DNA of 64,000 nt from Ligula intestinalis (lineage: Eukaryota > Platyhelminthes > Cestoda > Diphyllobothriidea > Diphyllobothriidae). The notes beneath the pieces are model-generated. The model made no database searches. It worked only from the letters and a program-made list of their open reading frames with translations, and was not told the DNA's origin. This document shows, in pieces, positions 1,711 through 56,072 of this stretch (positions are counted from its first letter, which is position 1; each line of letters opens with the position of its first letter). Both the position numbers and the translations under genes were made by a program. The stretch covers positions 69,203,522 through 69,267,521 of the forward strand of contig JAYGXS010000003.1 of assembly GCA_036362985.1 (NCBI GenBank). The letters run 5' to 3'.

Positions 1711-2272
1711 GTCTAATTAGTCCTAGAGAGGTAGGATCGATATACTTCCTACGAAGCCGCATTGCAGATGCACAATTTTGCAAGTAGTTAGGAAATGGGC
1801 AGCCAGTCCGTAGTTATTGGCCATCGGGAGGTTGATAATTTATTGATATTTGAAACATTTATTTACTCGCCTATTGGTAATCGGGGCTCGTGTCAGGTGT
1901 GTGATCATGTGAGCTTTAGGTAAATCAGGTAGACATGATTAAAAGCAAGCTCTGCTCGCCCTAGAACGCATTTTATCACAGTTAGTTTATGCTAGTGTAT
2001 GCGCTTCAAAACGCGCACAAATACTGGCGATTTTATGTTGAGCTTGTTAATAACTAGATGCATTTAGACAATTTTTCATCAAATATTTGAACTTGTTTTG
2101 AAAATCACAACGGCTGCGGTATGATTTGAGCTCAAGAAGAATATTTTAAAACCAAAACTGAATACGCAGAAAAAGCCATGCTATATCATATTATAAGATA
2201 GACTTGTTTGCTTGCATAAAAATGTTATGGATGCGGAAGTAGTCGGGTCGAGCATCAGATCAATCGATTTAT

Positions 2273-2318
2273 TGTTCTGAGCTTTCGAACACTTACAGGT
2301 GTCCATATTCAGAGATGA
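2273..2318 (-). ncRNA. Hammerhead-like motif, core-mutated (left end)
   Basis: On the minus strand this reads CTGAATA, a stem-loop (gacacctgtaagtgttc), GAAAGCTC, AGAAC. Position G8 of the CTGANGA box is changed to T, so this copy should be inactive if it was a ribozyme. It is the inverted counterpart of the motif at 3357-3402. Confidence 0.45.
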
Positions 2319-2417
2319 GAAAGCAACCAAAAAGAGAGTAATTTAAGATGCCATAAGCCAACAAACTGTCAGAAATCTTTAGGTTGTCAAAGAGTTAGAA
2401 ACAGCAATCGAACAAGG

Positions 2418-2690
2418 GTTGGGGAGGGGAAAAATTAACTGTCACGGGGGTCAGAGGGGCAATTACAGTGGTGTAGGCTACTTAACTCTCAGTGGGGCTG
2501 GGGGTCATGAAAGGCAATAAGCGTTACCAGGGCCCTCTAATGGGTGACAAGGTGGCACGCTAATTGCTGTTCATGACACCCCAGCCCCACTAACAGATAA
2601 TGAGGCTGCACCACTATGATTGAGCCTCCGAACCCTCTGACCCCAGTGGCAGCTAATTTTCCCCCTCCCCCACGCTTTTTCGATAGCTGT
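2418..2690. repeat. Palindromic (foldback/MITE-like) insert, about 270 bp
   Basis: 2420-2530 is an imperfect reverse complement of 2565-2690. Both arms carry the polypurine 'ggggaggggaaaa' end, 'ggtcagagg', 'gtggtg' and 'agtggggctgggg'. A short centre lies near 2540. The insert splits a sequence that is continuous in the other arm of the host repeat (compare 'gttagaaacagc' then 'gcttatgtagcc' read on the minus strand near 3250-3285). A half copy of the same family is at 43470-43610. Confidence 0.5.
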
Positions 2691-3356
2691 TTTGAAAAAA
2701 GTAGCTTATGTAGCCCCACTCATATACCCCTAGTCCCAGCATTTTGTCGTGAAAATTCAGTGGTGATAGAGTTTTGTAGGGCGGGGAAATAGGATAGGCA
2801 GAGAAGAAATGTTTTACAAGTAAGCGTTAAGTGATAAAATGTAGTCGAAGTTGCTTCCCACGGCCGCTGGGAGCAAGTTGTTCCGCAAGTAAATTGAAGG
2901 TGTGCGAAGCGCTTCGCGCTGCGGACTTTAATTATCTTACTCCAGAACGGTAAGTTGGACCACTGGTAAGTTGAAGTAGACGACCTCGTAACCACCATTT
3001 CATATTTTCAGACATTCAAGAAACCAGCAATTTGTTGATCAGGTTTTTGCCCCAATAAGTAAAATGGTAATACAATTTAGGAAAATCTGCAGATATAAAT
3101 CAACAACACTTCTAAATAGAGTAGAATAAAATTGCATTTAGCATTTATTAAAGTATAGCCCACTACCGTCCCCAATTTTCCGCACATATAACCCAATAAC
3201 CACCATTTTTGTAGGAAAACATGCGGGTTGAAGGAATAAATAAGTAGGGCTACATAAGCTCCTGTTGCCGCTGTTTCTAACCCTTTCACAATCTGACGAT
3301 TTCTGACAGTTGATTGTCCTATGCCCTCCATAATTACCCTCTTTTTGGTTGCTTTC

Positions 3357-3402
3357 TCATCTCTGAAGATGGACACTTGTAAGTGTTTGAAAGCTCAGAA
3401 CA
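3357..3402 (+). ncRNA. Hammerhead-ribozyme-like motif (right end)
   Basis: CTGAAGA is at 3363-3369, then one extra T. An 8-bp helix II follows (ggacactt / aagtgttt), then GAAA, a two-pair helix III (AGCT) and cleavage-site C. A three-pair helix I forms between 'tct' and 'aga'. An AATAAAT signal follows at once. Hammerhead ribozymes in PLE terminal repeats are established in the literature. Activity here is inferred, and the extra base after the CTGANGA box departs from the canonical core. Confidence 0.5.
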
Positions 3403-3454
3403 ATAAATCAATTGATCTGCTGCTCGAACCGCCTTCTTCCGCATCCATACGAAT

Positions 3455-4585
3455 ACCTGGATTGCGAACCTTCTCATTCATTCAATAAAAATGTTAGCTT
3501 GACCTATTTTTATTTTGTAAAATATGTAATATCTCTACCGCTCGCGACATAATTATGTTATAGATGTTATCTGTTTTACACATTTGCTGAACTGTATTTA
3601 CTTATAAAATGAGGCAAATGTTACTTAGTGGAGACGGTAGCTTAACCACACTTTAAATGTAGTGAGGTTGAATGTGGGAAGTTAACAACAAAATCCAGGC
3701 CACAATTTAAATGTGACGACAAGGAATACACAGGACGCGATTCTTGCGGAAAGCCAAAAACGGTGGAACGCCTTTTCAACCTCTTGTGCGCCAGGCGTGC
3801 TGTAGGAAGATGGGTCGTGGGTAGGCAGATAGAAACTTCTAGAAGAAACATTTAAACACAAGTAATGGAATAGCTGGAGTGCGCAAGGAATAGATTGCAA
3901 ACAATAAACTGCGAGGGCGAACCCTAGCGTATTTAGGTAACACGAATTTATAAGTTAGGCCTTCAATTACTCAGGCCAAAATTTTCCAGCAGCTTAACTG
4001 TTTTGGCCATCTAAATATGGAATGTACGGATTTGTAGATAATTTTAGCTGAAAATAGACTGTGTGAGTAAAGGTATAACTAAATGTAAAGAGTTCGGTGC
4101 TGTTTCGAAAAACATATTTCTTCTCTTTCACATGGGGTGTACTTGCAGCATGTCTTTGGGATCTCCGGAAGCAGCGATAAGTAAATAGTATATAATCATG
4201 GTCTTTGAGGACTTTTTATTCAAAATTCCCCGTTGTTTCTCGCAGATGCCATATATTGTACAAATAGTTTTCCTGATGTTTACAACTTTTCTGCCTTCCT
4301 TCCAGTTCGATGCTCTCTTCAGTAATTTTCACGAAAAACAGGCTAGTTATTTACGATACTGTGTTATGACTTTAGACATTGTTGGACATTTTATGCTTAG
4401 AGCCATCACACACACAGCACAGAAAATGTATCTAGCCTGAGTCTTAGCAAGTGTATTTCTATCGAAAGCCAAAAATTTAGGTAATTTCAGCAAATTGTGA
4501 TAAAATGCATGGCTACCAGCGGGTCCTTGTAGTTTATTTGAATGGAGCGTTGACTGAACCAAAGTCTCCAAATTGTTGGCGTGGG
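3455..4585. other. Unassigned, no gene recognised
   Basis: Several short ORFs overlap on both strands (3642-3900 minus, 4198-4440 plus). None has a domain signature. The minus-strand ORF at 3642-3900 in two frames looks like random open sequence. Confidence 0.4.
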
Positions 4586-5460
4586 TTTCAGCCCCACCAA
4601 GACCAAGGACCCTGCCATCAAGACACGTTCACATTTATTGACGACATCAGGGACATAAACCTAAAGGCATGATGATGCTCTCCTTAGACGTCTCGTCGCT
4701 ATTTACGAACGTCCCGGTCGTGGAAACAGTAGATTACATCTGCGACTTCCTATTGACGAATCAGACAGAAGGAGGAATTCCAATAGAAGCCCTGAAGGAA
4801 CTTCTACTAAAATGCACATTAAATGTGCAGTTCCTTTTTGATAACCAACTATATCGACAGATAGACGGCGTCGCCATGGGCTCCCCTTTGGGCCTCTCCT
4901 AGCAAATATCTTCATGGGCAGGCTGGAGAAGTTTCAACTTAGCGACCAGATTCATGAATTTAAACACTACGATCGCTATGTCGATGATACCTTTGCTATC
5001 GCCCCAGCAGACACTAATATAGACTTTCTCCTAAATACTGTCAACCGTGATTTACAAGGTCTCATTAGATTACCCAAAGTCCCTGGGTCAACGGCTGCTG
5101 GCAACAGCGGAGGCCACGGCCATTCGCCTGATGAAGTCGGTGTTGTGCGCACAGTAAAACCATCTCCAGGCCCCAAGCCTGGCATAGCCAGCGGCCGCAG
5201 AACTACCAGCATTTTCCACGCGTTTTTTCCCCTGTCCCTCTCTTAATTACCCTGTCACTACCCTTTTTTATCAACCCAAACCCAAAGCCCCCATTCCCAA
5301 GACTAAGTTGATTAGGACGATAATTAATTGATTGTTTATCACCTTTTACCTTCCCCTTCCATGTAAATGTAATAGCCCAAAGAGAATTTATCGAAAGTAT
5401 ACGTATGCTCGCCAACTGTCCTTCTGAATTATCGAATGGGGATTTTCGCAATTTTCTGTG
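4586..5460 (+). mobile_element. PLE copy 1: RT palm fused by deletion to GIY-YIG tail
   Basis: This is a Penelope-like retroelement fragment. The RT palm is readable: MLSLDVSSLFTNVP (motif A, from about 4675), QIDGVAMGSPLG (from about 4860), and DRYVDDTFAIAPAD (catalytic YVDD, near 4978-5015) after one frameshift at about 4900. At about 5052 the sequence jumps straight to the end of the GIY-YIG domain (homologous to 22621-22770), out of frame. This removes about 0.7 kb relative to the 21.6-kb copy; the junction carries 'atttacaaggtc', found at the equivalent endonuclease position. The 3' end (5380-5460) retains degraded PLTR sequence. The element is non-functional. Confidence 0.8.
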
Positions 5461-6035
5461 TAATACTGAGGTTTACATTTGGGGATCAGCTAATCTCATG
5501 GAGAAAATGACCAGCTTACCTTGTTAATGTATTTTATGCAAACGGCTTTAGACCGAGTCCATCAAAGTTATTTGTATCTTTCTCCAATTTTGAGTACATG
5601 AGAGATTTATTTGGTAAGTTACTTTGCGAGTTTTATTTGCACATATTATTTTGTGCAAAAAAAATTGTGTTTGACCGAACACACACAAAAATATTTTGTG
5701 AGGTGTTTGGAACCCGTATTCAAACGATCATTCAGACAATAACACGTTACTGTCAGACCCTTTAAGAAAACATTTTAAATGATTGTATGAGTTTATAGGG
5801 GTGAAATTTGCATAATTGTGGATATGCAAGTGATTTAAAACGCAATGTGCCACGTGAGGTTACTATCCTTTGGTTTATGTCAGCAAATCACTGATTTAAG
5901 CTTACGATTTGGCAAGTCGGAGTGCATACCACATTGGCCGGCAAGTACCTCTTAAAAACAGTGGAATAATATAGATCGAAAACGTTGTATAAAAACGCTG
6001 TCCAGTAATAACAGTCTGGCATATAATCAGCTCAC

Positions 6036-8205: not shown

Positions 8206-8555
8206 CTGAAAATGGAAAACAGAATTAAAGTTTATCAGTGGTAATATAAATTCATACAGAAGACTAGTAATTTGTTGTAACTTAGTCCACTATCATAGCT
8301 TGTAAATTCAAATATATTTACTTTCCCTAATTTGGCTTGATGTTTCAGTTAAAAAAAAAACTGTGGGACCCTTTCTTTTTATCCTTACTTAACTTAATAG
8401 CCATTTTAAGTAAAAACTTGCATTATGCTTGGAAGTCCGTGTATTTAAAAAAATTTAATCATGGATTTGTGTTCACCTTCATATTATGCTTTATGAAGAA
8501 AAATCTAGATTCTCACACCAGCTGCGACGCTAATTTTCAATGTAAAGCCTTCTGA
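8206..8555. other. Presumed intron, nothing recognised
   Basis: The plus-strand ORF at 8337-8555 is AT-rich (KKKLW, FFLSLL) and has no family signature. Confidence 0.35.
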
Positions 8556-8559
8556 AATT

Positions 8560-8640
8560 TTAAAGTCAATTATACAAACATGCGTTTTCTGTGTCTCATC
8601 ATCGGGCCGGTACAATTTCAGTAAAAATTAATAGAACATT
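8560..8640 (-). repeat. PLTR remnant with hammerhead-like core
   Basis: On the minus strand this reads 'accggcccgatgatga', a short loop, GAAAACGCATGT. It matches the PLE terminal-repeat pieces at 55680-55775 (minus) and 57530-57600 (plus), which share 'ccggcccgatgatga' and 'GAAAACAT'. It is probably the 3' end of an otherwise lost PLE insertion. The CTGATGA box appears here as CGATGATGA. Confidence 0.4.
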
Positions 8641-9285
8641 TTTGAACAGGGTTTATAAATGTCTTAGCAGTAAAACGCATCGTTCTTAATTCGCATGCAA
8701 GACATGGTCATTATGTTAGGGTAAACGACACTGAGGAAGAAAACCAACAGAGAAGGCTATAAACACTGTTCATAGATTGACATTGGGCAGTGAACATGGT
8801 AAAAATTTAGTTTAGGTCTCAAAAAAGCGCGCTGAAATTCCATTGTTGTGCACTACAAGACAAATGACTAAAGATTATGTACTTTGGGCATTATAAAGAA
8901 ACGAAAATTCAAATAAACCTAAAGAGCGTATAAAAGTAGAAAACTGAAATACTTATAGAATCTCATGTTTGACTACAAGATTGCACGCAATGAATAAAAT
9001 ATGCAAATACGCTGATATCGGGAAATGCTTAAACTCTCGAAGCAACGCAAAGAAATATTAATTTCCATGCCTACCAGAAAGCAAAGTGGTAAATGAAAAA
9101 AAGAAAATCTCATGTCAATAATCAATCTAAAAGTTAAGTACAAATAAAGTTAACTAACTAAAGAATGCTAAACTAAAATAAACAAAACTAACTCAATCTA
9201 AAACTAAATAACAAGAACTAAAGTTAACTAACTAAAGAAAGCTCATTTAAAATAAGCTGAACTTTAGAATATCCAGTCACAAAAC

Positions 9286-10250: not shown

Positions 10251-10830
10251 AGCAACTTTTAGTCGACACTGCCGAGCATTTATATGTTATAGTTCACACA
10301 ACTACCATTTTTAAATAGTTCTTGTTGAGAAATCTTACCTCATACATTTTCGTTGTCCCCCTTTGTGTTTTCACGAACTGCGAAGATCGTGTCAATCATC
10401 GCCACCACCGAACCTTGTAGTCTTAAGCTACACGGATCCTTCTGATTTCTTCGCCTGGTTGGAAGCCTCAGTAAGCAGCAACGGCGTATGTTGGGCGCAT
10501 CACCGACATTTCGGTAACGTTCTCGTGACCTTCCCCTTAGATGACGCTTACGATATTGATAAAAATCGCGATGAGCTCCTCCTGTTATGCGTCAACCACT
10601 CTTAGCAGCAGCAGGTCATCCTATCTTGCATATACTTTAAATTTCTCCAAATGGCACTCACACCCATAGGATATCCAAACAGTGCCTAAGAAGGTTTTCC
10701 TTTCCGCTCCTCCTACTTAGTTGCGTTTACTGACATCGCCACTCCTTGGAATTGCCACGGTAAATCAATGCGTGGCAAACTGCTCTGTACCAAGGTCATT
10801 TAGCTATACTGTCTTTAATAAACGTGACGT
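10251..10830. other. Unassigned between LINE and PLE
   Basis: A plus-strand ORF at 10363-10605 is open for 80 codons but I recognise nothing in it and found no paired splice borders. Confidence 0.3.
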
Positions 10831-11119
10831 GAAATCAGTTTATTGCAAACAATTGCTTTCAGCAAACCTTTATCAGACCAAAGGTTTGCAAGAGAAATTA
10901 ACGCTGTACATAACAATTAAAGTTTGAATGGGTAGAAAAATCAATTACTACCTAACATGGGTGCTGATTGGCCAACGCGGACTATGTCAGTTTGCGCATG
11001 TAGGCCATGTCAGCGTGTTGGTTGAGGGAACGTCGCTAGTTGGAAGAGGCAAAATCTTATCACCACCTGGTGTCGGTTTAGGCCATGAAAGTGAAAGAGC
11101 TTGTGTCAGAGTCTTCTGA
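10831..11119 (-). mobile_element. Inverted 3' fragment at the 5' side of PLE copy 2
   Basis: Read on the minus strand it starts with the last codons of the PLE endonuclease ORF (homologous to 13665-13790), runs through the 3' untranslated part and ends in the PLTR. The plus-strand ORF at 10928-11119 is only a shadow of this. Junction with the plus-strand copy is at about 11116-11119. Confidence 0.8.
10838..10882 (-). ncRNA. Hammerhead-like motif, core-mutated
   Basis: Minus strand: TTTGGT, CTGATAA, a loop ending 'gct', GAAA, GCAATTGT, TTGC. G8 of the box is A, which should abolish cleavage. It is the homologue of 11262-11302. Confidence 0.45.
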
Positions 11120-11261
11120 AAACCAACACGCTGACATGACCTACATGCGCAAACTGACATAGTCCGCGTTGGCCAATCAGGACCCGTGTTAGATAGTTAT
11201 TGATTTTTCTACCTATTTAAACTTTTAGTGTTATGAGCAGCGGTAATTTCCCTTGCAAACA

Positions 11262-11302
11262 TTTGGTCTGATGAAGAGTTGCTGAAAACAATTGTTTGCC
11301 AT
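11262..11302 (+). ncRNA. Hammerhead ribozyme-like motif in the 5' PLTR
   Basis: Intact box CTGATGA at 11268-11274, a short helix II (AG...CT), GAAA at 11284-11287, helix III 'AAC' with 'GTT' closing an AATT loop, cleavage position U at 11297. Helix I is formed by TGGT with GCCA (one G-U pair included). This is the type I order known for PLE hammerheads, with very short helices II and III. Helix II has only two pairs, so activity would probably need flanking or dimer context. Confidence 0.6.
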
Positions 11303-11324
11303 AAACTGACTTCTAATATTAACC

Positions 11325-13793
11325 ATGGTAATATTTGCGGAACTTAGACAATCTAAAGATCTCGTGGTTTTAAAGGAACACAATGAATTCCTAAAGTTTG
11401 ACACAAGGCTTGCATAGGCAAACGTTACAGCCAAATTCCTATCAGAATGTAAAAACCGAGGAAAATATCCAAGACAGTGCTGGAAAATCTTATGAAGAAA
11501 CCATATAAACGTTTTTTTTTGCCGCACTAGGAAGACATGCGGAAAGTTACCTGGAGACTGTTAACGCCGGAATTCTGGAATTTTACAGAAACCAAAGTCA
11601 GAGAGCAGCGTTTTCGACCGTCTTGAAACTGTAGAGAGGTTAGCGTTTGAAGACTATGTACAAACAGTAGGAGTGTCCAACCAATAAAAGTACTGACCAC
11701 CCTCCCAAACAATCCGGAGAGGTATGTGCATAACTATTTCTCAATCCGTCCTGACAAAACCTTCATAGAGGTACTATCTCGAGGCCCTAGATTCTGTTTT
11801 GCACGAAAAAGGTTAAGACAAATAGAATAAGAAACTGAATTTGAGAACCTCTTTAACCAAACCCCCGATCTAAAACCTTCCATGCCTAAAGAAGGTGATT
11901 ATCTCAAGTCGACCCTGGTTAACTGCTGCCAGCATTACTGAGAAAGACTCCAATAAACAAAGGCCCCTAAACAAAAGCCCACCTTAATAACCTAAAAGAG
12001 CTACGAAGAAATGAAAATATCGTGCTAACCAGACCAGACAAAGGATCTGGAATAGAACTGAGGGATAAAAATGATAACATCGCAAACCTAGAAGCAATTT
12101 TAGCAGATCATACAAAGTTCTCAAAAGCTGAGAAGGACGAAGATCGGACAAATACTGTTGAAGGTCAGCTGACAACAATTCTCAAAGACCTCTATAAAGA
12201 AGGTATTTTGACTGACAAAGAGCTTGAAACACTAATACCTGTAGGAACGACGATACCTAGAATGTATGGACTTCCGAAAATTCACAAACAGGGGCTACTC
12301 TTACATCTTATCTTGGATATGAGAAACTCCTCTTATCGCACCATTGCCAAATGGTTGGTAGAGAAGCTGAAACCTCTTGGAAGTTACATATATCCTCGAA
12401 GCCTGAAAGACACATTTGCATGTGTCACAGCTATAAAGAATCTGCACGTTTCAAGAAGTAAGATGCTCTCATTGGATGTATCCTCACTATTCACCAACGT
12501 ACCCGAGGCAGAAAACATAAACTACCTCTGCGACGTTATTTGGGACACCAACTACCAGATGGGTATGCCCGTAAAAACCCTCAAAGATCTCCTTACGCGA
12601 TGCACACAAAATGTCTAATTTCTCTGCAATGGTCAGTTTTACAGACAGATAGATAGTGTGGCGATGGGCTCACCACTTGGCCCGTTTCTTGCAAATGTCT
12701 TTATAGGCAAGATCGAGAAAACGAGTCTAAGGGACACCATCAATGAGCTTACATTCTACGGTCGATATGAAGATGACATCTTCTGTTTGACAGACTATAA
12801 CGCTGACATTGACGCCTTGGTTGCGAAGTTAAACAGCGCGCACCCATCGCTCAAATTTTCTGCTGAGACTGAAGTGGACGATTAAATTGCGTTCCCCATG
12901 TCCTTCTGTGAAGGCAAGAGGATGGATTTATCCTACGCAGGGTTTTCCAAAAGAAAACCTAGACAGGAAAATACACTCACTTCCACAGTTTTGTTCGCCT
13001 CAATAGGAAACGAAATCTGATCCAGGGGTTAAAAGCTAGAATACGACAGATCTGTTCTCCTGAAACTGTCTAAGCAGAACTCCAAAAGCTGCAGCATACA
13101 CTAATTGAAAATAGGTACCCGGAAAGGTTCATACTCAAAAATATTGGCCAATACGCCAAAAAGCCTGCAACCTAAACTGCAGAAAAGAAAGCTGTGTTCA
13201 TAAGGCTGCCTTTCTTAGGCGATGCAACCAGCGAGCTGGTCAGACGACGCTTGAGGACTGCAATCACTAACGCTTTCCCTTCGGCGAACTTACGGGTACT
13301 CTTCACGAACTCTCCCCTTCTTCGATTGGGAGGTAAAAACCGACTTTCTTTGAAGGCCACATCAATGTGCATTAACTCTTGTACTTGCTCCTGCGGAGCG
13401 GGATACATCGGTCGTACATCAGGGCGTCTGGAAAAGAGGACAAGTGAGCACATACCGACATGGGTAAATAAAGGTTAATCTAGATCAATCTCGAGTGCTA
13501 TTCTCGCACATCTTGTCCATACGAACCATCGAGTCGATACTAACGAAGCCTTTCAGGTGGTCTACAGAACACCATGTAATTTGTCCAAAGGCCTACGCCA
13601 ACGGATGCTTGCAACAGCTGAAGCAGTAGCTATAAGGCTCGCAAATCCAGTGCTGTGTTTTCAGAAGACTCTGACACAAGCTATTTCACTTCCATGGCCT
13701 AAACCGACACCAGGTGGCAATATGATTTTGCCTCTACCAACTAGCGACAGTCCTTCAACCAACACGCTGGCATGGCCTACATTCGCAAACTGA
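11325..13793 (+). pseudogene. PLE polyprotein: Penelope-type reverse transcriptase plus GIY-YIG endonuclease (broken)
   Basis: A single degenerate ORF of about 820 codons, the usual length for PLEs. In order: N-terminal region with ATG at 11325 (MVIFAELRQS); LSRGPRFCFARKR at about 11775; RT fingers with DKGSGIE and RMYGLPKIHK (12040-12290); motif A MLSLDVSSLFTNVP near 12462; QIDSVAMGSPLGPFLANV near 12650; and the catalytic box, which is YEDD instead of YVDD at 12766. After a frameshifted stretch (12885-13190) comes the GIY-YIG nuclease (CGAGYIGRTSGRLEKR near 13395), ending LPWPKPTPGG. The RT copies element RNA and the nuclease nicks the target. Stops occur at about 11835, 12616, 12883 and 13477; this copy cannot make a full protein. 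Confidence 0.85.
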
Positions 13794-13895
13794 CATTGTC
13801 CTCGTTGGCCAATCAGCGCCCGTGTTAGATAGTTATTGATTTTTCTACTTATTCAAACTTTAATTTTTATGTACAGCGTTAATTTCCCTTGCAAA

Positions 13896-13938
13896 CTTTT
13901 GGTCAGATAAAGGGTTGCTGAAAACAATTGTTTGCCAT
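13896..13938 (+). ncRNA. Hammerhead-like motif in the 3' PLTR, core-mutated
   Basis: Same layout as 11262-11302 but the box reads CAGATAA, with two core substitutions. GAAA, the AATT-loop helix III and the TTTGGT/GCCATAAA helix I are kept. Likely inactive. Confidence 0.45.
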
Positions 13939-14436
13939 AAACTGACTTCTAATATTATTTCGATGGAAATATTTGCAGAACTTAAACATGACCTGATCAA
14001 AAATAAAGAAAAATTCAAAACAATAAACTACCCATAAACAATTTATGGCATGCTCATTTGTTGCCGAATATTAGATTATGCAAACAATTTTGGAACCTGC
14101 AACAAAATTATACCGTACAAATTAATGTGAATTGCGCAGAGTTCAGAACTGTCATCAGGGGTGTAGTCGATATAAAGTCACCACGCGAAGTCGGAGTCTT
14201 AATACAATGTTTACCTTGTCTGGGTAATTCTATAGTCCTGATAACACAACATACGTTTGCCAGGTTAATTTGTCATGTCTTATTTTTACGTGCTTGCCTC
14301 TAATATGCAGGTAAAAATAAAATTAATTCCAAAAAAGTAAAAGTCAGAAAACTGAAACGTACTTATTGCATCCTCCAAACTCATAGTACCGAAACTGTTT
14401 TTCTTTGAGGGTTAAATAACTAAGACTGCAGAATTT

Positions 14437-20413: not shown

Positions 20414-21599
20414 CTAAACATTGAGATGTTATTGCATTCCACTTAAATCTTTGGAGGCAATCGCAAACTTTTGGACAGTAACGGCAAAAAATAAATGTGA
20501 AATAGGTGCTTGAACGCGGGAGACGTTAGGTAGCATGCTTCAATGTATTATTATTATTATTGATGAATTTTGCTGAAATAAAACTGCAGTAGAATATAAT
20601 TCCGAAGTATTTAATACGTTCCCAGTTAACTGCTTTTTATGCATCTCAGCGAACGTTCGGGTTTCGAAAAAGGAGCCTCCATTTTTCTGTTCGCAGTTTG
20701 CATTTTAATATTTTATATATTCAGTAAAGCAAGTGCTGCGAGCAAAAGTCCTGACAAAATTCGACTTTGCAGTTTAGCCTATTTTGGTCATGTTACTTCG
20801 ATTCACCGCGTTGATCTTATACTGTGGAAGCACGTTAGTTACGATATTTACCCTTTAAGTTAAGCTTATGAAGGGTAATTTGCATTATTTCGGCGCCATT
20901 GTGAGCAGTCTCATGCCAAGAAATGTCTTATTCTATTAAATACGAAGGAAACGAACTAGTGTTCATGATGCTATACAAGAACTCCAAAATAATTTAAAAA
21001 GTGTAGAAACGGAAATGTTTGTCCGAAATTGTTTAAATGCAAGTGAGAGCAAGTTTAAGGAATCGCATTTATTTTCAGAAACAAGGTAAATTTTCAAGTT
21101 TTAAACTTATATTTAGCTAACCTTTGAAGGTTATTTTCACAAAATGCAGTAGCCAAACATTTTGGCAGCATTTTGTTTTACCGCTTCACGTAGATGGCAC
21201 ATAAGCAAATGCATAAAGGTCATGTGATACAGGCATTATTAAATATGAGTGATATAAAAATATAATATTGTAGACTTCACTTTTCACTAATGTGTTATTC
21301 AGGAACAAAACAAACGGAAAAATAATAATTATTGAACTATCTTCTTCAATATACGGCCACATTATTGTGCTTTTACAAGCTTATAACAGAGTCTGAAAAT
21401 AATTCACTATGGCGGAAAATAATCCCTTATGAGGAGAAAATAGAGATTTTTTTCATTTTCAGTCAAGTTGAATCATTTGCCTTCCGGTAAATTTAAAATG
21501 TTTGTCAAAAATCTCCATTTCCAATTTGATATTACCTTGGAGCAAGATAGTATGCACATATTTCTACAGCTGAATATCCATTTAAATAATTCAGAACAC

Positions 21600-21650
21600 A
21601 ATTTTGGCGAGTGAACGCTTTCAGTAACTTCTCATCAGGCCAAACAGTTG
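21600..21650 (-). ncRNA. Hammerhead ribozyme-like motif in left inverted PLTR
   Basis: Minus strand: TGTTTGGC, intact box CTGATGA, gaagttact, GAAA, a short helix III with a mismatch, C, then GCCAAAA, which pairs with TTTGGC to give a strong helix I. Core bases are intact but helix II is weak. Confidence 0.55.
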
Positions 21651-21721
21651 CAAAGAAGGTTTACATTTAAAATTGATAGTTTGTCTTTCTTAACTCAAAT
21701 GCAAATACAATGTGATATTCG

Positions 21722-22085
21722 TTTTTGATGACCACTATACAAGCAAAAAGACGGCTTCGCTATGGGCTCACCTCTCGGGCCTCTCTTGGCCAACATCATA
21801 TTGGGCAAGCTAAAAAAGTTCAACTCAGCATGCAGATTCATCTGTTAAAACACTTTGGCCATCGCCCCAGCAGATAGTGATATAAATGCGCTTCTACATA
21901 CTGTTAATCAAGCACACCCCTCCATAAAGTTCACCTTGGAGGTGGAGACGGCAGGTTCGCTTCCTTTCTTGGATGTCCTCCTGACGGTAACATTCGAAGG
22001 AGCGTTAACCGAAAGAAAACCTGGTCCGGAGAGTGTACAAACTTTAATAGTTTTGTACCTATCCAACAGAAGCGTTACGTAGTCC
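21722..22085 (+). pseudogene. PLE reverse transcriptase remnant lacking the YVDD box
   Basis: Begins in the RT at the KKDGFAMGSPLGP motif. The segment that should hold YVDD is deleted: coding jumps from the IILGKLKKFNSA region to TLAIAPADSDINALLHTVNQ, the block just after the active site. The thumb-like part follows (HPSIKFTLEVETAGSLPFLD, VLLTV, then TERKPG). Without YVDD this RT cannot be catalytic. Confidence 0.75.
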
Positions 22086-22208
22086 GCTGCTTAACGCAAA
22101 AAGCCAGAAAACATCTGCTCAGCTAACACTATTGAAATGCAGCTCCAGAAAATCCAGGACGTGCTTTGAGAGAACGGATATCCGGACAGATTCATCATAA
22201 ACAATAAG

Positions 22209-22775
22209 ATGGAAAAAGAAACAAAGCCCACCACACTCACAGTGGAAAAGAAGACGCTATTCCTCAAAGTCCCCTTTCAAGAGGATGAAGCAAGCCACCT
22301 CTTAAGCAGACGCCTCAAGCAAGCCGTAGCACAAACCTTCCCAACAGCGAAAATTCAGTTGTTTTTTTCAACCAACCCGATACTGCATGGTGAGGGTAAG
22401 GATAAGCTGCCAACTCAGACCACTTCTATGTGTATTTGCTCATTTACTTGCTCCCATGCAGCTGGTTATATCGGTCGCACGAGTAGGCGCCTATCTAAAA
22501 GAATACGGGAACACCTCCCGGCATGGCTTGTCAAAGGTGAGACCCAAAGTAAAAGCAGTTCTATACTCGCACACATGGTTGACACCGGACATCGTGTGGA
22601 CCCAAGCAAAGCCTTTAAGGTAATTTACAAGGTCCTACCAAACTACCCAAAGTCCCTGGGTCAACGTCTGCTGGCAACAGCAGAAGCAACCGCAATCCGA
22701 TTGAGGAAACCGGTTTTGTGTGCACAAAAGGATCTCGTGCAAGCCTCCAACTTGGCATGGCCAACGATTACCTAA
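22209..22775 (+). pseudogene. PLE GIY-YIG endonuclease domain, open frame of 188 codons
   Basis: The longest open piece of any PLE here. It holds the region before the nuclease (LFLKVPFQEDEASHLLSRRL), TSMCICSFTCSHAAGYIGRT (GIY-YIG core with Cys pair, second Cys replaced by His), SRRLSKRIREHLPAW, SSSILAHMVDTGHRVD, and the C-terminal QRLLATAEATAIRLRKPVL. The GIY-YIG nuclease is thought to nick target DNA during PLE insertion. The upstream RT is broken, so this is a remnant rather than a gene, although the frame is intact. Confidence 0.75.
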
Positions 22776-22861
22776 CTGGCTGCACATTTCCCCGCTCTGA
22801 TTGAACCCTGCATGTAAAGAAAGACCAACTATCGATTTTTAAATTTAAACCTCTTTTGGAA

Positions 22862-22908
22862 CTGTTTGGCCTTATGAGAAGTTACTGAAAGCATTTGCTC
22901 GCCAAAAC
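22862..22908 (+). ncRNA. Hammerhead-like motif in the right PLTR, one core change
   Basis: GTTTGGC, CTTATGA (G5 to T), gaagttact, GAAA, helix III AGC/GCT closing ATTT, cleavage C, GCCAAAAC. Helix I is at least six pairs. The G5 change should block catalysis. Confidence 0.5.
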
Positions 22909-23369
22909 TGTGTTCTGAATTATCTAATGGAAATTTTTGCAACTTTGGAATATCAAATTAAAGTGTTTTTTTATCAAGTTTAGGAATAATAACATCAGAA
23001 CTCTGTTGCATACATTCTTCGTGCTCGACACCATGTTTTACTGTTGTTGAGCATTTCTAGATATAGTCTACGTTGCCATTTTCATAAGAACTAATGTTCA
23101 AAACCTTTTTTCTTTAAATGCTCTCAATATATATGTTTCGATGTAAACTTCGAACATAGTCTGCATAAATGAGCAGAAGCTTGACAGCACTGAAAATGCT
23201 CGAAAAGTAATCGGCATTTAAAGGTTCATATGTAAGTAATTGTAATTAAATAAAGGTAATATGTTCAAAATATGTTGGATAAGGAACATGTTTATATTTA
23301 TAACTGAACAGAATATCGATTGCATGTGCTACGGCATGAAACCTGTTTTAACACCGCAGATGCTGACTA

Positions 23370-26839: not shown

Positions 26840-29350
26840 TGCTTATACTGATAGTGTAAGGCCTAGGATTCGTGAAGCATGCCGAAATATGCGAAAGATT
26901 GATACCCTTTCGCTAATCAGCATTGCGTTATGTTGTAATACTGTTTAACGTGTAGGCTTTTGTGAATTTATTTTAGTCACGATAGGATGCCGGAGTTTAA
27001 AAGGCTTTTTTCTGACCGCTAAACAAAACATATGCACTGTAAAACGTGGCTACTTAAGTACTGTGCACATTTTTCATTGATTTCGACTGCTTTTGTAAAT
27101 GCAAATATATTTTATAGAAGACATAAATGAAAATATTTATCCTTGTACTCCTTTGGTAGCAAATTACGCACTCCTAAAATTTTAATCTTACTCCAATATG
27201 TTGCCAATTTAAAAGGCTTGTGTAGTATGAACGCTTTAATCATTGAACTTATATGAATGTAGATTATCCGGAATGCCCAGAAACTAGGTTGGTATCATCT
27301 ATTTTCTATATTTCTATGCGTCCTTTGTTTTTTTCCATTTAAGAAAAAGGACCCCATTGGATTTGAGGGTTTGGCAAACTTTAGAACATTGATCATGGCT
27401 TTTATTGCTGAATTCACATGGGTGGCAGCGTTTCTCCACAGTAGCTCCTTCGGAATGAATGTTAGCTTGCCCTTAATGTGTAAACAACTAGAATTCACGT
27501 AAAATGTTTGTTTTGATTTTCTTCATGCTTTCCTACACACTATCGTCGCAAACTGCGGCCACAGTAATTCTAACGCCCTTACTGTTCTTTAGCCTCCGTA
27601 GTTTGGCATATCTGGTCCATTCTGTTTCGCCACCACGGCTGTATATCCCACCGTCCTTTACGCTTTCCTCTTCACGCAGTTAAGACGACGGGTATCGAGG
27701 GCACGAACCTTTCTTAAAGTGTCATACGCCAGATTTGGGAAGACCGCGCACATGTCCTGCGTGCTTTTGCCCTCCTTAACAAATTTTCCATCCTTGCCTC
27801 AGTGATCTTAAGTACATTTTTGGCAAATGACCCTTTTTTTCTATTCCTATATACTATTTTCGTTTTCCGTCAATGTGATTGGAATGACGCATTTGGTTTT
27901 TGTTAAACTTAAAAATATTTTTTCCTATTTGGGAGGCTCAAGGGGACGGTTAATAGAAACGAAAGGAAGCTAAAGTAAGAACGAACCTAATGACTCACTA
28001 TCAGAGGAAAAAATAATGCCTTTTCTAGTCCCCAGTATACATTCACAATCCAACCTTTTTTATTCGCTCCTTTTTTATTTTGCGTAACCTTTCTTGTCTA
28101 TCCCTACCATCATCATTATCATCATCATAAGGAAGTCCAGCATAGAGTTTTAAAGGATTTCACTAGATTTTGCAACGGGCACTGTTTGTAGCAAATCACG
28201 GAAATACAAAACGTTTAATATGCCGAGGACATTGCGCAAATTTTCAGGGAGATTAAAGTTCACTGTAAGGATGGATTTAATGCTGGGGCTAGGATTGGGG
28301 GTAAAGTCTATTCTACGGTGCGTTTTCTCTAAGGAAAGGTCTACGACTAAGTAATGGATTAGGGTTTATAAGGCATGGGGGTATGAAAAACTGATATTTA
28401 ACTTTCCTATATTCTTTCGATACACCATCTGGATTCCAATTGGGGTTATTTTCCTGCTCCCGCCCCTCAACCTTTCTGTGATTTTACCTTCCACTGAATT
28501 CGCTCGGCTCGTGTTTTTTTTTCTCTTGCTATCAGTTAATTTTTTGCCTCATACGTATATCTTCACCCACGCCAGCGAGAGCACCACAGCATAATCAACA
28601 CCATCGCCATTTTGATAATGAGTTAAGTCTCCATAATTGTCATCGTTGGCCTCCACCTCATTAGCTCCCTCTTCTTTATCCCCTTTTTTCTCTTCACACA
28701 ATCAGCATTAGTGCAATAGATGTGATCGGCATCAAACTCATCTCACCGGCAACCATCTTCATCCTCTGTCTTCCAGTGCTCCTGCACCGCTATTCTTTAG
28801 GGTTTGATGATGCGCACTCACATGGCACATACTTATATCAGTTAGTAGGCTGTATGTCTTGTTGAAACTAATTTTCAGGACTATTTCCCTTCGCATTAAA
28901 TGCATTGAAGTTTTTTCTCCTGACCTTTATTCTTTCCTACTGCTGTAATTTAATGAAAGATATGCTATCATTGTGTGGTATTGCTATCATAACTTAAAAT
29001 GTCGATCCTCCCTTTTCCTACCTGTTAGGTTATTTTCTTTGCATTCTTTATTTTTGTCCACGAGGTGTTTAATCAGCACCATGTTTATACACAAGCAAAT
29101 AAAGTTGACTTGGACATTCTGAGCCGTTTACCTTTGCCTGAGAGTCATACTCAAGTCCATATAGGAGTTGAAATGCGAGACAACTATAACTTCAACAAAC
29201 ACAATACCATCAACTAGCTGACTACTGCTTCCCAGGTTGCGAGGTAAAATCATGCAGTCTTCAAACGACCTCTCTAAATGTCTGGAGTATAGTAAACGGA
29301 CAAGGTCACCACAGACTCTCCGTTCGCATGACCAATAATTGACTGTTCTG
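26840..29350. other. Long AT-rich stretch, no gene recognised
   Basis: Low-complexity T-rich and C/T-rich tracts. The minus ORF at 27295-27498 has no domain signature and no repeat partner was noticed in the window. Confidence 0.4.
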
Positions 29351-29379
29351 CTTTGCGGAAGAGCCATTGCAGGGGTCTT

Positions 29380-30147
29380 CTTGCCATCTTCATCTCAAAT
29401 TTAGATGGGAGCCGCGTGTTTTCTGGTATCGCGACACACATCTCCATTGAAATGTTATGGGTCATTACCCGAGGTAGTGACCGGACAGCCAGAGAAACAC
29501 TTGAAGCATGGCACACTGCACCAAATTCCATCAACCGCTGTACGATTCTCCCGGCGGCTTACCAGGCTTTACGCGTGCGGCTCAATCAACGAAATCGCCG
29601 GCAGGAAGTCAGACGGGTCGCAACGACTAGCAACCCCACACCGGGCCAGAAAACAGGCGTCCGGTATCCTACCCCAGACACCAATGCAGCCGTCAGCGAC
29701 GCCGCAGGCAACGTGAACCAACAAGACCTCCTGTCGGGCTTGAACGCAGTTGCACATGACAACGGTCTCTGCATAAACACTGATGGCGGGGTTCGATATT
29801 CCGCCGGCGGGACGAACACGGGAAAGTGCCAACGGGGGAAGCCAGCAGGACATGCGGCACCGACGCGATCGATGCAGACGCGAGCAATGACCGCTAGCAG
29901 GCGAACACTGCCCTCCCCCTCCGACGAGGTGACGGCGAGAAACCTTGGTCAGCAGGACGATGACGGAGCTCCAGCCCCACCCCCGCAGGGGATCTAGCGC
30001 CAATAGACGGAGAACGAACGAGAAGTCAGTGGTAACACCTATGAAAGACTGTGAGGCGTGTACAAACACCAACCTCCGACGATGCAAGCCTGTACGCTTT
30101 CGAAACGTCAGGATATTATACCCATTATTCCCGAGATCGCCTCTTCT

Positions 30148-30150
<3 letters not shown>
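29380..30150 (+). mobile_element. PLE 3' fragment (EAWHT-type endonuclease tail) with hammerhead-like 3' end
   Basis: 29420-29640 reads GSDRTARETLEAWHTAPNSI, NRCTILPAAYQALRVRL. This is the C-terminal part of the GIY-YIG domain in the PLE lineage that also occurs at 30.6, 34.9 and 47.4 kb (R..lEAW.s...SiNR...l...Y..L). The open frame then continues through a low-similarity tail to 29997. The 3' end has a hammerhead-like motif (30071-30113) and a 'cgcctcttcttct' run. Confidence 0.65.
30071..30113 (+). ncRNA. Hammerhead-like motif of the GAAACGTC type
   Basis: CCT, box CCGACGA (U4 to C), helix II AAGC/GCTT, GAAACGTC, AGG. Helix I pairs CCT with AGG. The U4 change argues against activity. Confidence 0.4.

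Positions 30151-30151
<1 letters not shown>

Positions 30152-30183
<32 letters not shown>
30152..30183. repeat. (TA)n microsatellite between two converging PLE fragments
   Basis: About 16 uninterrupted TA units follow directly on the CTT run of the plus-strand PLE 3' end. The next identifiable sequence, from about 30205, is the 3' side of the minus-strand PLE. Confidence 0.9.
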
Positions 30184-30204: not shown

Positions 30205-30740
30205 TTCCGCATAGATACTAGCTAAAAGCCCAGACACGTGTTTCGCCGATGTTTCTGCTACTGCATGATACAGCAACGAAGTGTTCGGCTCTTCAGTATA
30301 TATATATTGGGGGCAGAGGTTACAATGAACGGGAGAATTGGGTGGGAGGGTTATGGTGACGTGAATTTTGCGGCGATAGGTTGTGCTGGTGAGGGGAGAG
30401 AGGGGTTAACGTTTGGACTGTTGGCCTCGTGTTCGGGGGAGAGAAGGCTGGTTCAGAGTCAGTGAAAGTTTACTTGCCCGAACACGGACAGCCTGCTGTT
30501 GTTTCAGGCTGGGTCCAGATTAGTCGACAATACACGGTAACCGGTATAGTGTGAGCCAAGGTCTACGTGTCTGTTTATACTAGTCGGGCTCGAGTGCCAA
30601 GCTTCGAGGAATTCTCTCGCTTGTCGCGTATTAACCATTGCGATCACGTTGGTGCCATCCCAATTGAGGCGGTGATCGCACTCAAGGGACTGTGTAAGTA
30701 CGAGTGATAAACGGTCCCGTAGACGAGATGCTAACTTATA
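30205..30740 (-). mobile_element. PLE 3' fragment, minus strand; holds the intact Tigger target site
   Basis: Minus strand from about 30740: KLASRLRDRLSLVLTQ, LECDHRLNWDGTNVIAMVNT, RQAREFLEAWHSSPTSINRH, then the 3' untranslated part (C-rich, with 'aacctctgcccccaa' shared with 37440-37460). The site 'ctagTAtaaac' (TA at 30578-30579 on plus) is the empty version of the transposon target at 34967. A possible hammerhead-like fold (CTGAAGA, GCCGA/TCGGC stem, GAAACACGTGTC) lies at about 30235-30305. Confidence 0.7.
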
Positions 30741-31380
30741 TTTGCAATATGCATATCAGATAGGAATATGCACCTACCAGCTTCCCCTTCTCAACTGAGG
30801 TGCTCTTGTGAACACCCGGTTTATACTGTGACGGTATTGGCGAACACGTTGTCTCTGCACGGAAGACGCAAACCAGCAGATTTGAGGTCCAAACATGCGT
30901 CTCGTCTCCTCTCTCCAAGTCTGAACTCTAAAAACCAGACATATATTGTAAAAAACAATGCTTCTCACTGTTTGCCAATACTATGTTAGTAGTGGTAAAT
31001 TTTTATAGGTGCTTGGACACGTTCTAAATAGGGTTTTCAAAGGCATTGCCTATTATCCTCACCAAATAAACTGAATTTGAAAAAAACAGACTAGTGCGGT
31101 GATTCTGCGTGAATCAGTTTTAAGTGAAAGTTGACTTTTCGCAGCACCCACACGCACTCCTGCTCTCCTCTCTTTCACCTTAGCCCGATTTTTTTCAGTC
31201 CAGAGCGCAGTAGGCAGCTTTAAAATTTTGAGGTGACTATCGTAGACAGTCCCAAGGCATTTATGCTGGAGCAGGTGATAGCCACGTTAGCAGGGCATTA
31301 GAAGGGGGGCAGGCTTATACTCACAGTAGGGGTGGGAGTCTTTTAATACCCTGCATCATGCTGTCGGGTCGAGTTCGGGG
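30741..31380. other. Unassigned
   Basis: Overlapping ORFs on both strands at 30736-30989 show no family signature; nothing recognised. Confidence 0.35.
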
Positions 31381-31385
31381 AGTTA

Positions 31386-33160
31386 GTCAAGTCAAGTCAA
31401 ATTTATTAAAGGAAATATAGGCAAATGCCTTTGAACTCCCTCTTGGTACATAGGATTTAAGAAATGCATTGGCAAAGCCGAACATTCCAAAGAAGTCGTT
31501 GACACAATTTCAAACGACTGCTCGCTTGTTTCAAATAATAAACTCGCACGCAGTTTACACGAGCCAGCAGTGTAACTGAGCAAAAAGAGCAGACAGTGAA
31601 AAAACTCCTAAGGCTGACTCATAATTCAAAATGGAATGTCATTTTTGGTTTTTAGGAGAAAAACTGTCGCTCGTGGGGAAGTATGTGAATGATAGGGGCA
31701 TGATGCTTCTGTGAATGTTGACGGTATCCATGGCGTCCATGACGAGTAATATCTACATCCGAAGGACCATACGAGAAGGAGACCTCGGAGTCACGAGAAC
31801 GTCCCGAAGACCGGAGATGTGACCATGATACGCCTTTGCTGTGCCAAGAGCCGAGGAACCCATCACGTCGTCAGCAGTCGGTCGATACGAGAAAGGGTTT
31901 GACAGGGCCGCGTAGCCTAGGACCATAGGTGCGGTAGATGCGTCCTCAGACACGATCGGCGCAGATCGCATAGTGAGTAGATACGTCATAGCTAGATAAT
32001 GTCAGAAACTCATTTGGTTAAGTACTAATAATAATACTACTTACAAATTACTATTAGTATATATTTATAGAATTTCTAGCATTTCAGGGTTTGGATGTAG
32101 AGTGCTTCAATTTTTAGAATCGGAATACTTCAGTGATTGGATTTGGAGTACTTAATCGTGACGATACTCATTAAATCGGTCTAGGTTTGCCTTACAAACA
32201 TCCACGGAAGGGGACATGACAATATCCGCAGGAAGGGCATTCCATGCCTGGATTACCCTCTTAGAGAAAAAGAATTTTCTTGGGTCATGTCTTGCCCCAG
32301 TCACACGTAATTTGAGGGGGTGTCCTCGCAGCCTAGAGGTGGTGGCCCGCTCATTTGTTTGAAGGCAGCAATCCTGATCACGCAACATGCGAAATGCCTG
32401 GATTAGGTCCCCACGTAGCTACCTGTAATCCAGAGGAAACAAGTCAAGATTTACCAATCGGGTCTCATAAGGGAGGTTCCGTTGGCATCGTACTAATTTT
32501 GTTGCGCGTCTTTGTACCCTTTCGAGGTTTTTTTGTCTTTGGCTGTCCAAGGTCTCCAGGCTTGGATGGCAAATTCCAGTTGAGGTCGCACGAACGTGCC
32601 GAATACCTTGCCAAATACAACTTTGTCAAACTTAGCAAAGGCTCGCTTGATTAGATACAAGCTCGACATTGCGGATTTAGCCACTTTCAGGACGTGGAGT
32701 GATGGCTTCAGTGAAGGCGTAAACCACACACCCAGATCTTTCTGAGCTTCTACCTCTGGCAGCGGCGTGTGATTCAGGTAATTCACCCTCCGAGGCGTAT
32801 TGCTGGTTCTACCAAAGCGCATTAGGTTGCATTTGGCCACATTGAATGGCATGAGCCAAAGGGTCGAAAATTGCTCCAGTCTATGCAAATTTGCCTGGAG
32901 GTTTAATTCATCGTCTTGGTTGCGTATGACCTTCCAAAGTTTTATGTCATCAGCAAACAATGCGATTTCGCAGTCTAGTCCGCTTATGCAGTCATCAATA
33001 AATAAAAGGAAGAGAATAGGGCCACGAACAGATCCCTGTGGAACCCCGCTCTCAACTGCTACCTCCGCCGACCGCTGTTCGCCAATACATACGGTTGTAT
33101 GTATACATAAAGTTGTTTCGGCCAAGGCGATTATCGATCACATGAACACAGAGTTGAACC
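31386..33160 (-). mobile_element. CR1-type LINE, 5'-truncated, with (TTGAC)n tail
   Basis: Minus-strand RT reads SGVPQGSVRGPILFLLFIDD, LDCEIALFADDIKLWKVI (motif C FADD intact), WLMPFNVAKCNLMRFGR, LGVWFTPSLKPSLH, FGTFVRPQLEFAIQAWRPW. After a frameshift near 32490 comes the C-terminus LRGHPLKLRVTGARHDPRKF, FFSKRVIQAWNALPADIVMS. The stop is at 32152. A long 3' untranslated part ends with AATAAATTTGAC and TTGAC repeats at 31386-31400, a microsatellite-like tail typical of such LINEs. It begins inside the RT at about 33160, consistent with 5' truncation during target-primed reverse transcription. Confidence 0.8.
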
Positions 33161-33480
33161 CTGGTAAGCTGGAGGTCGAACGCATCATCCTCGTTTGCTG
33201 TACGCTAATCGTATCTGAAAGAACTTGGGTAACGATACACGGCCCATACCAGTCAAATACAAATTTTGACGGCATCCCTTTACTAGTCGAATAGGTTATC
33301 TGGTATTCGCATATGGCGGCCGCATGTGAGGGCGAAAGGAGTCTAATGTGTCGATGAGTAAAACGTGAAAAGATAGGCAAGCTGTCGCGTGGCACACGCA
33401 TATTTTGCAAATGGCCTTCAACGTCCTTTCCAAGTAGGATAATGCTATCGAGAAACACCAAACAGGTCTTCGGGATGAGC
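33138..33480 (-). mobile_element. Degenerate LTR-retrotransposon-like C-terminal domain
   Basis: The minus frame includes GMPSKFVFDWYGPCIVTQVL, SDTISVQQ. This is reminiscent of the chromodomain-proximal 'GPY/F' module behind Gypsy integrases (k....w.GPy.V..v.s...y.v). Only this motif supports the call; catalytic integrase residues are not present. It abuts the 5'-truncated end of the LINE. Confidence 0.3.
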
Positions 33481-33489
33481 TGTGTGAGG

Positions 33490-34730
33490 CTCAGTCTTTA
33501 GAATGTACAAGGCAAATTAGCCAAATCAAAGTGAATGGGGTTCGAATTCCTATAGGCCGGAGGGAACCGAAAAAGCAATTTATTAACGGTCGAACGGCCT
33601 GACAATACCCGGTGAATAAAGTTTAGAGCAAAAAAGTCCAATAGACTGACAGGGCATCTAGGGCTTCGTCAAGCCTAGTTCAAGCCCATTCAAGATTGTT
33701 CAACCACCGATTTTGACTAAGTTTTATCGTGTGGTCCCAACAGGTTGGTGCAGAGAAGGTGACTGGAAACAGGGGTTAGCTTTTCAGTATTGTAGACGTC
33801 GGAACTATCTGTCACAGTTTATACCTTTACGCGCCATAGCCGGCGACAAGACAGAGTCAACACTCACTCAAGAAGGACGACACTGCTACTGCTACTACGA
33901 TTTCTACTACTAATTACCAGCTATGTAGCTGAGTGAAGTAGTAGTGACACCATTTTTGACACTAATATAAGTCACAGCTGACGCTGATTAGAGTCGCCAC
34001 TGGCCTCATGTCTTCTCGATCTCAAGGAGGAGTGTCTAGCTGGATTGATACTTTTCCAAATAAATACATGTTTTCGGTTCGGAGCGCATCAGGGCTTGCT
34101 TTAACTTCCGCGCAAATATTCCGCTTTAACTGTAAACGTTGATGGCATTTTGCCGAGCAGGTAAAGTAAGCAGAAGGTGTTTTAGGGCGGGTCTCTAGCT
34201 CTTTAATGTCTGCGTTAAGGTATAGCACGAACACTAGAAAACCGGCATAAATCGCCGAAGTAAAATGAGCCCATGAGAAGGAATTTTATCAAACAACAAG
34301 CGTAGTATAAACACGTGCATAGTGTATATTTTAGGACACTTTCTAAATTTTTGTTAAATTCATCACTGCATAACCTGTAGAGGGCATAACTCAAAGTAAG
34401 CTATGCAAGGAGTAACTTCTTACGGTCTCTGAAAACTCCGAACAGACCTGGGGTCAGACGAAGGAAGCACTTGTAAAATAACCGGGTATTGGCAGCTATT
34501 TGGTAGAAAATGAACCAGAAGCAGCCTCTGGGTGGAAAACAATGCTTTGTATTATTTTTAACATCCACGAGTTTCAGTTTCAGTTATTTTCCTCAGCCAT
34601 TCCGGTCCTTGGTCCATTTTGTTAGTGCAAAGTTTCACAGAATGTGATAATGCTTATTTTTGTACGCTCCTGCACAGCTGTTTCTGCAAAGACTCTCATG
34701 GATCAGTCCGCTTGGAAACTCTGATCGAAG
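33490..34730. other. Unassigned
   Basis: Short tracts of 'ctactgctactacga' near 33885. No family signature in the ORFs at 33713-33913 or 34022-34234. Confidence 0.35.
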
Positions 34731-34968
34731 TCAATACCGATAAACGACGTTACTTATTTGTCCCACGGGTAGAGCGTCCTCTACCTTGAGACTCGCATCA
34801 ACGAACACAAGTCAGCCGTTCGCCTACGTAACCATTTATCACTCGTCTTTGCACACTTTATTGAGTGTGATCACCGCTTTAATTGGGATGCCACCGACGT
34901 GATCGCAATGACTAATACGCGACAACCGAGAGAATTCCTTGAAGCTTGGCACTCGAATCCGGCTAGTA

Positions 34969-46977: not shown

Positions 46978-47184
46978 GGCGAACGCCTCGAATTATTGTG
47001 TCAACTCAAATTATCATTGTGTCTTCTGGGCTTATCTGCTGGCCTGTTTTCATCTTGTAAAAGTCTCCGAACTCACTGGCTTCTACAGTCAGCCAGCTGT
47101 TCGAATACTGTCTACTGTATTCTCAAGCATTTGTTGACTGTTTATTTGACAGAACCTTTAGTGGACAATGTAATTTTTTTAGAA

Positions 47185-56025: not shown

Positions 56026-56072
<47 letters not shown>

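Follow-up and report, generated by a model that had tools for sequence, protein, structure and literature searches.

The stretch of DNA analysed here, hereafter the window, comprises 64,000 nucleotides (64 kb) of the tapeworm Ligula intestinalis (GenBank assembly GCA_036362985.1, contig JAYGXS010000003.1, positions 69,203,522 to 69,267,521 of the forward strand). It is repeat-rich animal DNA with 42% GC and a single gap of 10 N, and it harbours copies of Penelope-like elements (PLEs), retrotransposons coding for a reverse transcriptase (RT) and a nuclease. An earlier note on the sequence had described six loci at which a minus-strand piece of a PLE 3' end lies to the left of a plus-strand 3' end. 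Self-comparison of the window bore this out at 6/6 loci, designated here by their left ends as 2226, 10831, 21573, 47181, 55699 and 56584, where inverted arms with 76-90% identity were found (Table 1). The arm pairs have BLAST E-values from 1e-113 down to 7e-9, and their matches are thus beyond chance.

Table 1. Mirrored insertions and other PLE-type features of the window, in order of position (pLTR, pseudo-long terminal repeat; MITE, miniature inverted-repeat transposable element).
Feature	Positions	Strand	Basis
Mirrored insertion without coding, near-palindrome split by MITE-like insert	2228..3484	.	12-bp duplication ATAAAAATGTTA at 2216 and 3485
Truncated PLE copy, no inverted partner	4530..5462	+	Coding by translated search; 3' end resembles 21573
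Lone minus-strand 3' end	8520..8650	-	Resembles both ends of 55699 (scores 56.5 and 57; shuffles reach at most 36 and 34.5)
Left target duplication of the 10831 element, candidate, TAAACGTGACGTGA	10819..10832	.	12/14 versus 13983-13996; p 0.11 and 0.09
Inverted 3'-end piece (pLTR and last endonuclease codons)	10833..11123	-	90% to reversed 13650-13949
Direct 5' pLTR, hammerhead-like core at 11268	11121..11350	+	89% to 13757-13988; core by pattern match
RT and nuclease body, broken by stops and frameshift	11351..13656	+	Reading frames; RVT_1; database match
3' pLTR and tail of the 10831 element	13657..13982	+	Self-comparison and duplication tests
Mirrored insertion: minus piece up to 21694-21703, RT/nuclease body, 3' end	21586..22947	+	DNA and translated matches
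Second-lineage copy, no inverted partner	29347..30160	+	Translated search; 3' end comparison
Possible seventh mirrored pair (minus arm 30307-30737; plus arm 34809-34968 with 37172-37458)	30307..37458	+	79% over 451 columns
Truncated PLE copy, no inverted partner	43847..44440	+	Coding; core at 44346
Mirrored insertion, second lineage: minus piece up to 47304, nuclease fragment, 3' end	47177..47855	+	Translated and DNA matches
Mirrored insertion: left arm 55699 to ~56483-56499, body from ~56483; (GTA)n and N gap within arm	55697..57595	+	Arm pairs
Palindromic insertion without coding, plus 3' end longer	56584..56922	.	12-bp duplication AGAACTCCAATA at 56572 and 56923
Hammerhead-bearing 142-bp insertion, no mirrored left end	57965..58106	+	12-bp duplication GAAAATTAAATT at 57953 and 58107; core at 58026

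The 10831 element carries three pLTR copies, one inverted and two direct. Its arms span 10831-11129 and 13650-13949, and the inverted piece contains a minus-strand protein match at 11121-11020 (E 1.8e-12, translated search). The direct copies, at 11121-11350 and 13757-13988, form a partial tandem arrangement seen at this locus only. Over 193 columns, changes private to a single copy number 9, 10 and 8 for the three copies, which all differ at one further site; they have diverged equally, as expected if they are of the same age. One window piece from the body matched RVT_1 with an E-value of 1.8e-4, which is under the Pfam cut-off. Among the best 120 of 531 database matches of the broken RT-nuclease, the closest are from Sparganum proliferum (69% identity, 94% of the query) and Spirometra erinaceieuropaei, and the best ones are RVT_1-bearing tapeworm and fluke proteins.

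With regard to the other loci, the 2226 insertion (arms 2226-2405 and 3270-3449, 87%) has an interior of about 860 nt within 2226-3454, consisting mostly of a nested MITE-like insert, and approximates one palindrome once this insert is removed (309 columns, 81%). The insert itself (2681-3270) has inverted ends and a GCTGTTT repeat flanking both sides, and a relative of its right part is present at 38052-38198. In 21573 (arms 21573-21703 and 22809-22935, 85%) and 47181 (47181-47304 and 47689-47810, 82%), the inverted pieces measure about 120-130 nt and truncated bodies follow directly. The locus that the earlier note had placed at 56160 is mirrored as stated, but its left end lies near 55697, the former limit corresponding to a (GTA)n tract and the 10-N gap inside the arm. 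The extension to 55699 follows from the pairing of 55699-55770 with 57520-57590 (79%) and of 55868-55941 with 57351-57424 (78%), in addition to that of 56364-56483 with 57150-57269 (76%). Nested inside this insertion lies the 56584 element (arms 56580-56680 and 56769-56864, 85%), whose palindrome spans 56580-56864 and whose minus arm is devoid of the hammerhead-like part.

Two lineages can be distinguished. Clear PLE coding of the first was found by translated search at 10831, 21573, 55699, 4530, 43847 and 63762, with RT coding at the first four of these positions; no RT was seen at 2226, 47181 or 56584. Its relatives P0106 and P0114 carry RVT_1 and GIY-YIG domains above the cut-off, and no GIY-YIG was reported by Pfam on the window pieces submitted. 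The second lineage (47181, 29347 and 30307) is represented by a nuclease fragment, the database relatives of which include a protein labelled GIY-YIG in one source; three of them, P0121, P0123 and P0128, match GIY-YIG only below the Pfam cut-off. Of these, P0123 aligns with the nuclease portion of P0002, a full-length PLE protein (E 7e-8). No RT of this lineage was seen in the window. Judging by these protein matches, the second lineage likely belongs to the PLEs. Where matches are strong or in the body's own frame, every PLE-type coding body lies on the plus strand (9/9: 4675, 11971, 21675, 29347, 34809, 43847, 47331, 56951 and 63762), minus-strand PLE protein matches being either mirrored arms or weak; this excess is due to chance or a local bias.

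When 3' ends were compared, that of 2226 grouped with 47181 (score 90.5, shuffle maximum 28.5), that of 56584 with 55699 (42, maximum 28), and that of the insertion at 57965 with 47181 (44, maximum 29.5) and 29347 (58, maximum 28). No alignment above shuffles was obtained between the 3' ends of the two groups (2226 versus 10831, 20.5, maximum 28). Several ends harbour hammerhead-like CTGANGA...GAAA cores, as revealed by a pattern search. Rfam gave no match at all at the gathering threshold and no hammerhead at E up to 10, where most of the 16 matches were microRNA models on the 56584 palindrome, and single-strand folds of the ends gave no clear hammerhead. Relatives were found at two weak loci in prokaryote contigs, and none in viral contigs.

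Inverted arms are also a feature of DNA transposons and MITEs with long terminal inverted repeats, and the window contains such elements: the arms 46540-46976 and 48006-48440, which are 90% identical, start with TGTCA, end with TGACA and enclose the PLE-type insertion 47181, look like a fold-back DNA element. As an account of the six mirrored loci, this origin was rejected and is hardly credible, since PLE-type coding is present in 4/6 of them, the 3' ends of the coding-free loci match those of coding copies, and the two ends of an insertion are unequal.

The flanks and inner junctions bear on whether each locus results from a single event. At 2226 and 56584 the outer duplications are perfect (12/12) (0 of 500 random placements; 0 of 1000 shuffles); the best candidates elsewhere reach 12/14 at 10831 and 21573 and 9/10 at 47181 and 55699. 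Combined over the six loci, they give a p of 1.7e-5, and the four weak ones alone 0.04. At the four body-bearing loci, the inverted piece adjoins the body without a spacer. At 10831, DNA matches carry the minus piece to 11123-11129 and start the plus pLTR at 11121; at 21573, they carry the minus piece to 21694-21703 and start the plus match at 21693. The other two junctions are placed by weak protein matches. At 47181, the minus piece ends at 47304 and the plus match (E 0.13) starts at 47301, and at 55699 the corresponding positions are 56475-56499 and 56483 (E 0.018). Furthermore, the pairs face outward in six of six cases (sign test 0.016). Each mirrored locus looks like a single insertion.

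The left pieces might nevertheless be independent insertions, which according to the earlier note would carry target duplications of their own, or products of later rearrangement, such as an adjacent separate copy, an inversion or a recombination. PLEs are dense in two tapeworm assemblies, for which the genome paper on S. proliferum gives Penelope shares of 9.95% and 10.41% (197,550 and 198,272 annotated pieces; PMC8166898), and the pair at 30307, with 4 kb between its arms and no duplication, could have arisen in this manner. Inner junctions yielded no better duplication than the outer ones, except for matches of 9/9 at 10831 and 9/10 at 55699, which would suit this explanation. The abutting pieces at 4/4 body-bearing loci, the perfect outer duplications at two loci, the equal ages within the 10831 element and the outward orientation of 6/6 pairs led us to reject it for the mirrored loci, and we hold it to be quite improbable.

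The two ends of an insertion are not the same. Both arms repeat the 3' region, and the plus end runs clearly further 3' in 5/6 loci (2226, 10831, 21573, 47181 and 56584), as judged from other copies. At 10831 the direct pLTR match reaches 13988, at 21573 the 4530 copy matches to 22946, an outer stretch is common to 2226 and 47181, and the hammerhead-like part of 56584 is common to 55699. Measured to the candidate duplications, the right excess amounts to 35 nt at 2226, 33 at 10831, 12 at 21573, 45 at 47181, 58 at 56584 and 5 at 55699; these lengths depend on weak duplications in four loci, and the left-right orientation is arbitrary for both coding-free ones. The excess resembles the Penelope tail, the length of which is given as 31 bp for Adineta vaga (PMC3846280) and as 30-40 bp for Penelope and PAc, a Poseidon element of the green anole, where it corresponds to the interval between two RT start sites (PMC11167929).

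As the inverted piece repeats the 3' region of the plus piece, two complementary DNAs (cDNAs) begun at the 3' side are needed. On balance, we think it somewhat more probable than not that nuclease-bearing Penelope-like retrotransposons gave rise to the six mirrored loci, a single event having produced each insertion from two joined cDNAs. In such an event, the element enzyme would cut both target strands about 12 bp apart, and each free 3' end would prime reverse transcription within the region of the element RNA that comprises the pLTR and the start of the open reading frame. One cDNA would then traverse the body, the other would stop after about 0.1-0.8 kb, and the two would be joined at short overlaps. 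The outcome would be outward 3' ends on both sides, the shorter copy being without the last stretch, or tail, if it had begun at an inner start site. That nuclease-bearing Penelope elements normally integrate by such paired target-primed reverse transcription, with two RNAs, one per nick, and a second cDNA from the inner site, and that hairpin inserts devoid of coding are left as a by-product if neither cDNA extends far, can be put forward tentatively, as possible rather than probable.

The likening of this process to L1 twin priming did not hold in the strict sense. In L1 twin priming, the inverted part is an internal stretch from upstream, distinct in sequence from the 3' part, whereas the inverted piece repeats the same 3' region at all six loci studied here. 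What the two have in common is the use of two primers at one target, an inverted left part and joining at short homology. As for the proposal of priming from both target nicks, the anatomy of the loci fits it and, in vitro, the PAc protein cleaves either target strand and extends it (PMC11167929), but the layout is also explained by self-priming (PMC3846280).

In self-priming, or snap-back, the template or the cDNA folds back and copies itself, thereby generating the inverted piece; the version proposed for A. vaga involves an antisense RNA template. The Discussion of PMC3846280 favours this explanation on the basis of palindromes at inverted junctions, and 2226 and 56584 are near-symmetric palindromes, as fold-back would yield. 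However, if the first cDNA simply folded back, the tail should be copied and synthesis should proceed into the target, whereas the left arms lack the tail in 5/6 loci and end at a direct 12-bp duplication at two. At 21573, 47181 and 55699, moreover, the inverted piece and the body start at different element positions, which leaves no simple hinge. Simple fold-back on the same cDNA was rejected for these reasons. An antisense template that has a 5' end of its own is still conceivable; it suits the two palindromic inserts well, but the missing tail and the unequal junction positions of the other loci less readily. Self-priming as a whole appears unlikely to us, though worth retaining.

Several observations weigh against an origin from paired cDNAs. 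No integration intermediate has been observed, and PAc did not differ between strands in its start site, so that it predicts no fixed choice between inner and outer sites (PMC11167929). Taken singly, four of the six outer duplications fall short of significance (p 0.09-0.25). At 10831, the 9/9 match between the inner junction and the right flank (11134 and 13986) scores slightly above the outer pair, and at 55699 the inner match scores equal to the outer one. The former was set aside by judgement as a target duplication, position 11134 being inside the pLTR. Finally, five PLE-type 3' ends of the window have no detected inverted partner, four on the plus strand (4530, 29347, 43847 and 57965) and one on the minus strand (8520); the constancy of outward 3' ends that had been claimed thus holds for the six loci but not for these.

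Partner scores were compared with a background of 60 stretches of the same window, true relatives included, and the six mirrored controls score 133-400. Since its 12-bp duplication is perfect (0 of 300 shuffles), the insertion at 57965 cannot be a mirrored copy that lost an arm by erosion. One reservation is that 15 nt near 58004-58018, about 38 nt in from its left end, are the exact reverse complement of the right-end 15 nt (score 30, shuffle maximum 25). We read this match as the outer stem of a hammerhead-like fold; a very short mirrored piece is also conceivable. The best partner score upstream of the insertion, where the search was made, is 22, reached by 42/60 background stretches. The four other ends are weaker counter-examples, because old copies can lose arms. 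Their partner scores are 24.5 for 4530 (reached by 32/60 stretches), 25 for 29347 (28/60), 23.5 for 43847 (49/60) and 29.5 for 8520 (6/60), for which no plus partner was detected up to 10800. The 3' end of 4530 resembles that of 21573 (80.5, shuffle maximum 35.5), and that of 43847 is like 4530 (54, maximum 35) and unlike 21573 (26, maximum 39).

The pair at 30307 is ambiguous. Its plus arm is split by a transposon, which was set aside for the alignment, about 4 kb separate the arms, a search for a target duplication found none, and the outermost ends are not alike above shuffles. The transposon, at 34967-37174, has a DDE_1 domain (E 2.2e-34), matching terminal repeats and TA at both ends, and we take it to be pogo/Tigger-like. 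At 30145-30310, the plus 3' end of 29347 and the minus arm of 30307 face inward across (TA)n tracts, opposite to the mirrored layout. The tally for the 64-kb window, which is not a genome-wide rate, is thus six mirrored, five partnerless, one ambiguous and one cut by the window end (63762). The default route suggested by the earlier note thus finds no clear support in the window. The last two stand outside the 6-to-5 count, as do a coding-free fragment at 43469-43573 related to 2399-2692 and two stretches with weak protein matches on the minus strand, 25828-25938 (E 0.006) and 46120-46206 (E 0.024).

The mirrored layout itself is already known. That inverted pLTRs occur in Penelope, as the earlier note stated, is in print: the typical structure according to PMC3846280, also found in other animals, combines direct pLTRs with a shorter pLTR next to them in inverted orientation, a tail and a short duplication. 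A curation guide (PMC8969392) presents inverted pLTRs as a peculiarity of individual copies, 5' truncation being usual. Pen2a_Av and its relatives in A. vaga (PMC3846280) resemble the present loci by the inverted pLTR and tail at one end and the short target duplication. They differ in that the window duplications are about 12 bp where exact (2/6 loci), two inserts are coding-free, the bodies are more broken and the host is a tapeworm. PAc is likewise an RT-nuclease PLE, with two RT start sites at a tail-matching interval and with both strands cut and extended; it is known from biochemistry, in which hammerhead ribozyme cleavage is unneeded and joined mirrored products are not described (PMC11167929), whereas the window loci are known from sequence. 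A search by title and abstract, with subscription journals mostly outside its scope, found no proposal of joined cDNAs from both nicks for Penelope, nor does the Main text of PMC11167929 contain one. What is added here are tapeworm loci with measured duplications, junctions and copy ages. As to how Penelope integration is completed, later steps are left open in PMC11167929 and self-priming is favoured in the Discussion of PMC3846280. With PLEs accounting for about 10% of the sequence in two tapeworm assemblies (PMC8166898), paired priming and self-priming could be told apart by scoring numerous copies for outer duplications, tail asymmetry and the positions of junctions, and these features are readable even in copies with arms differing by 10-25%.

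Other repeats are present in the window. Long inverted arms about 9.2 kb apart lie at 16313-16976 and 26180-26853 (80% identity, 685 columns), and between them a less similar pair occupies 17083-17394 and 25843-26140 (68%). Translated search found no PLE coding in these arms, save the above-mentioned minus-strand match at 25828-25938, which is weak and falls in the right arm of the inner pair. A direct repeat of about 460 bp with 76% identity occupies 54342-54797 and 61449-61903, and a further piece of it lies at 49191-49299.

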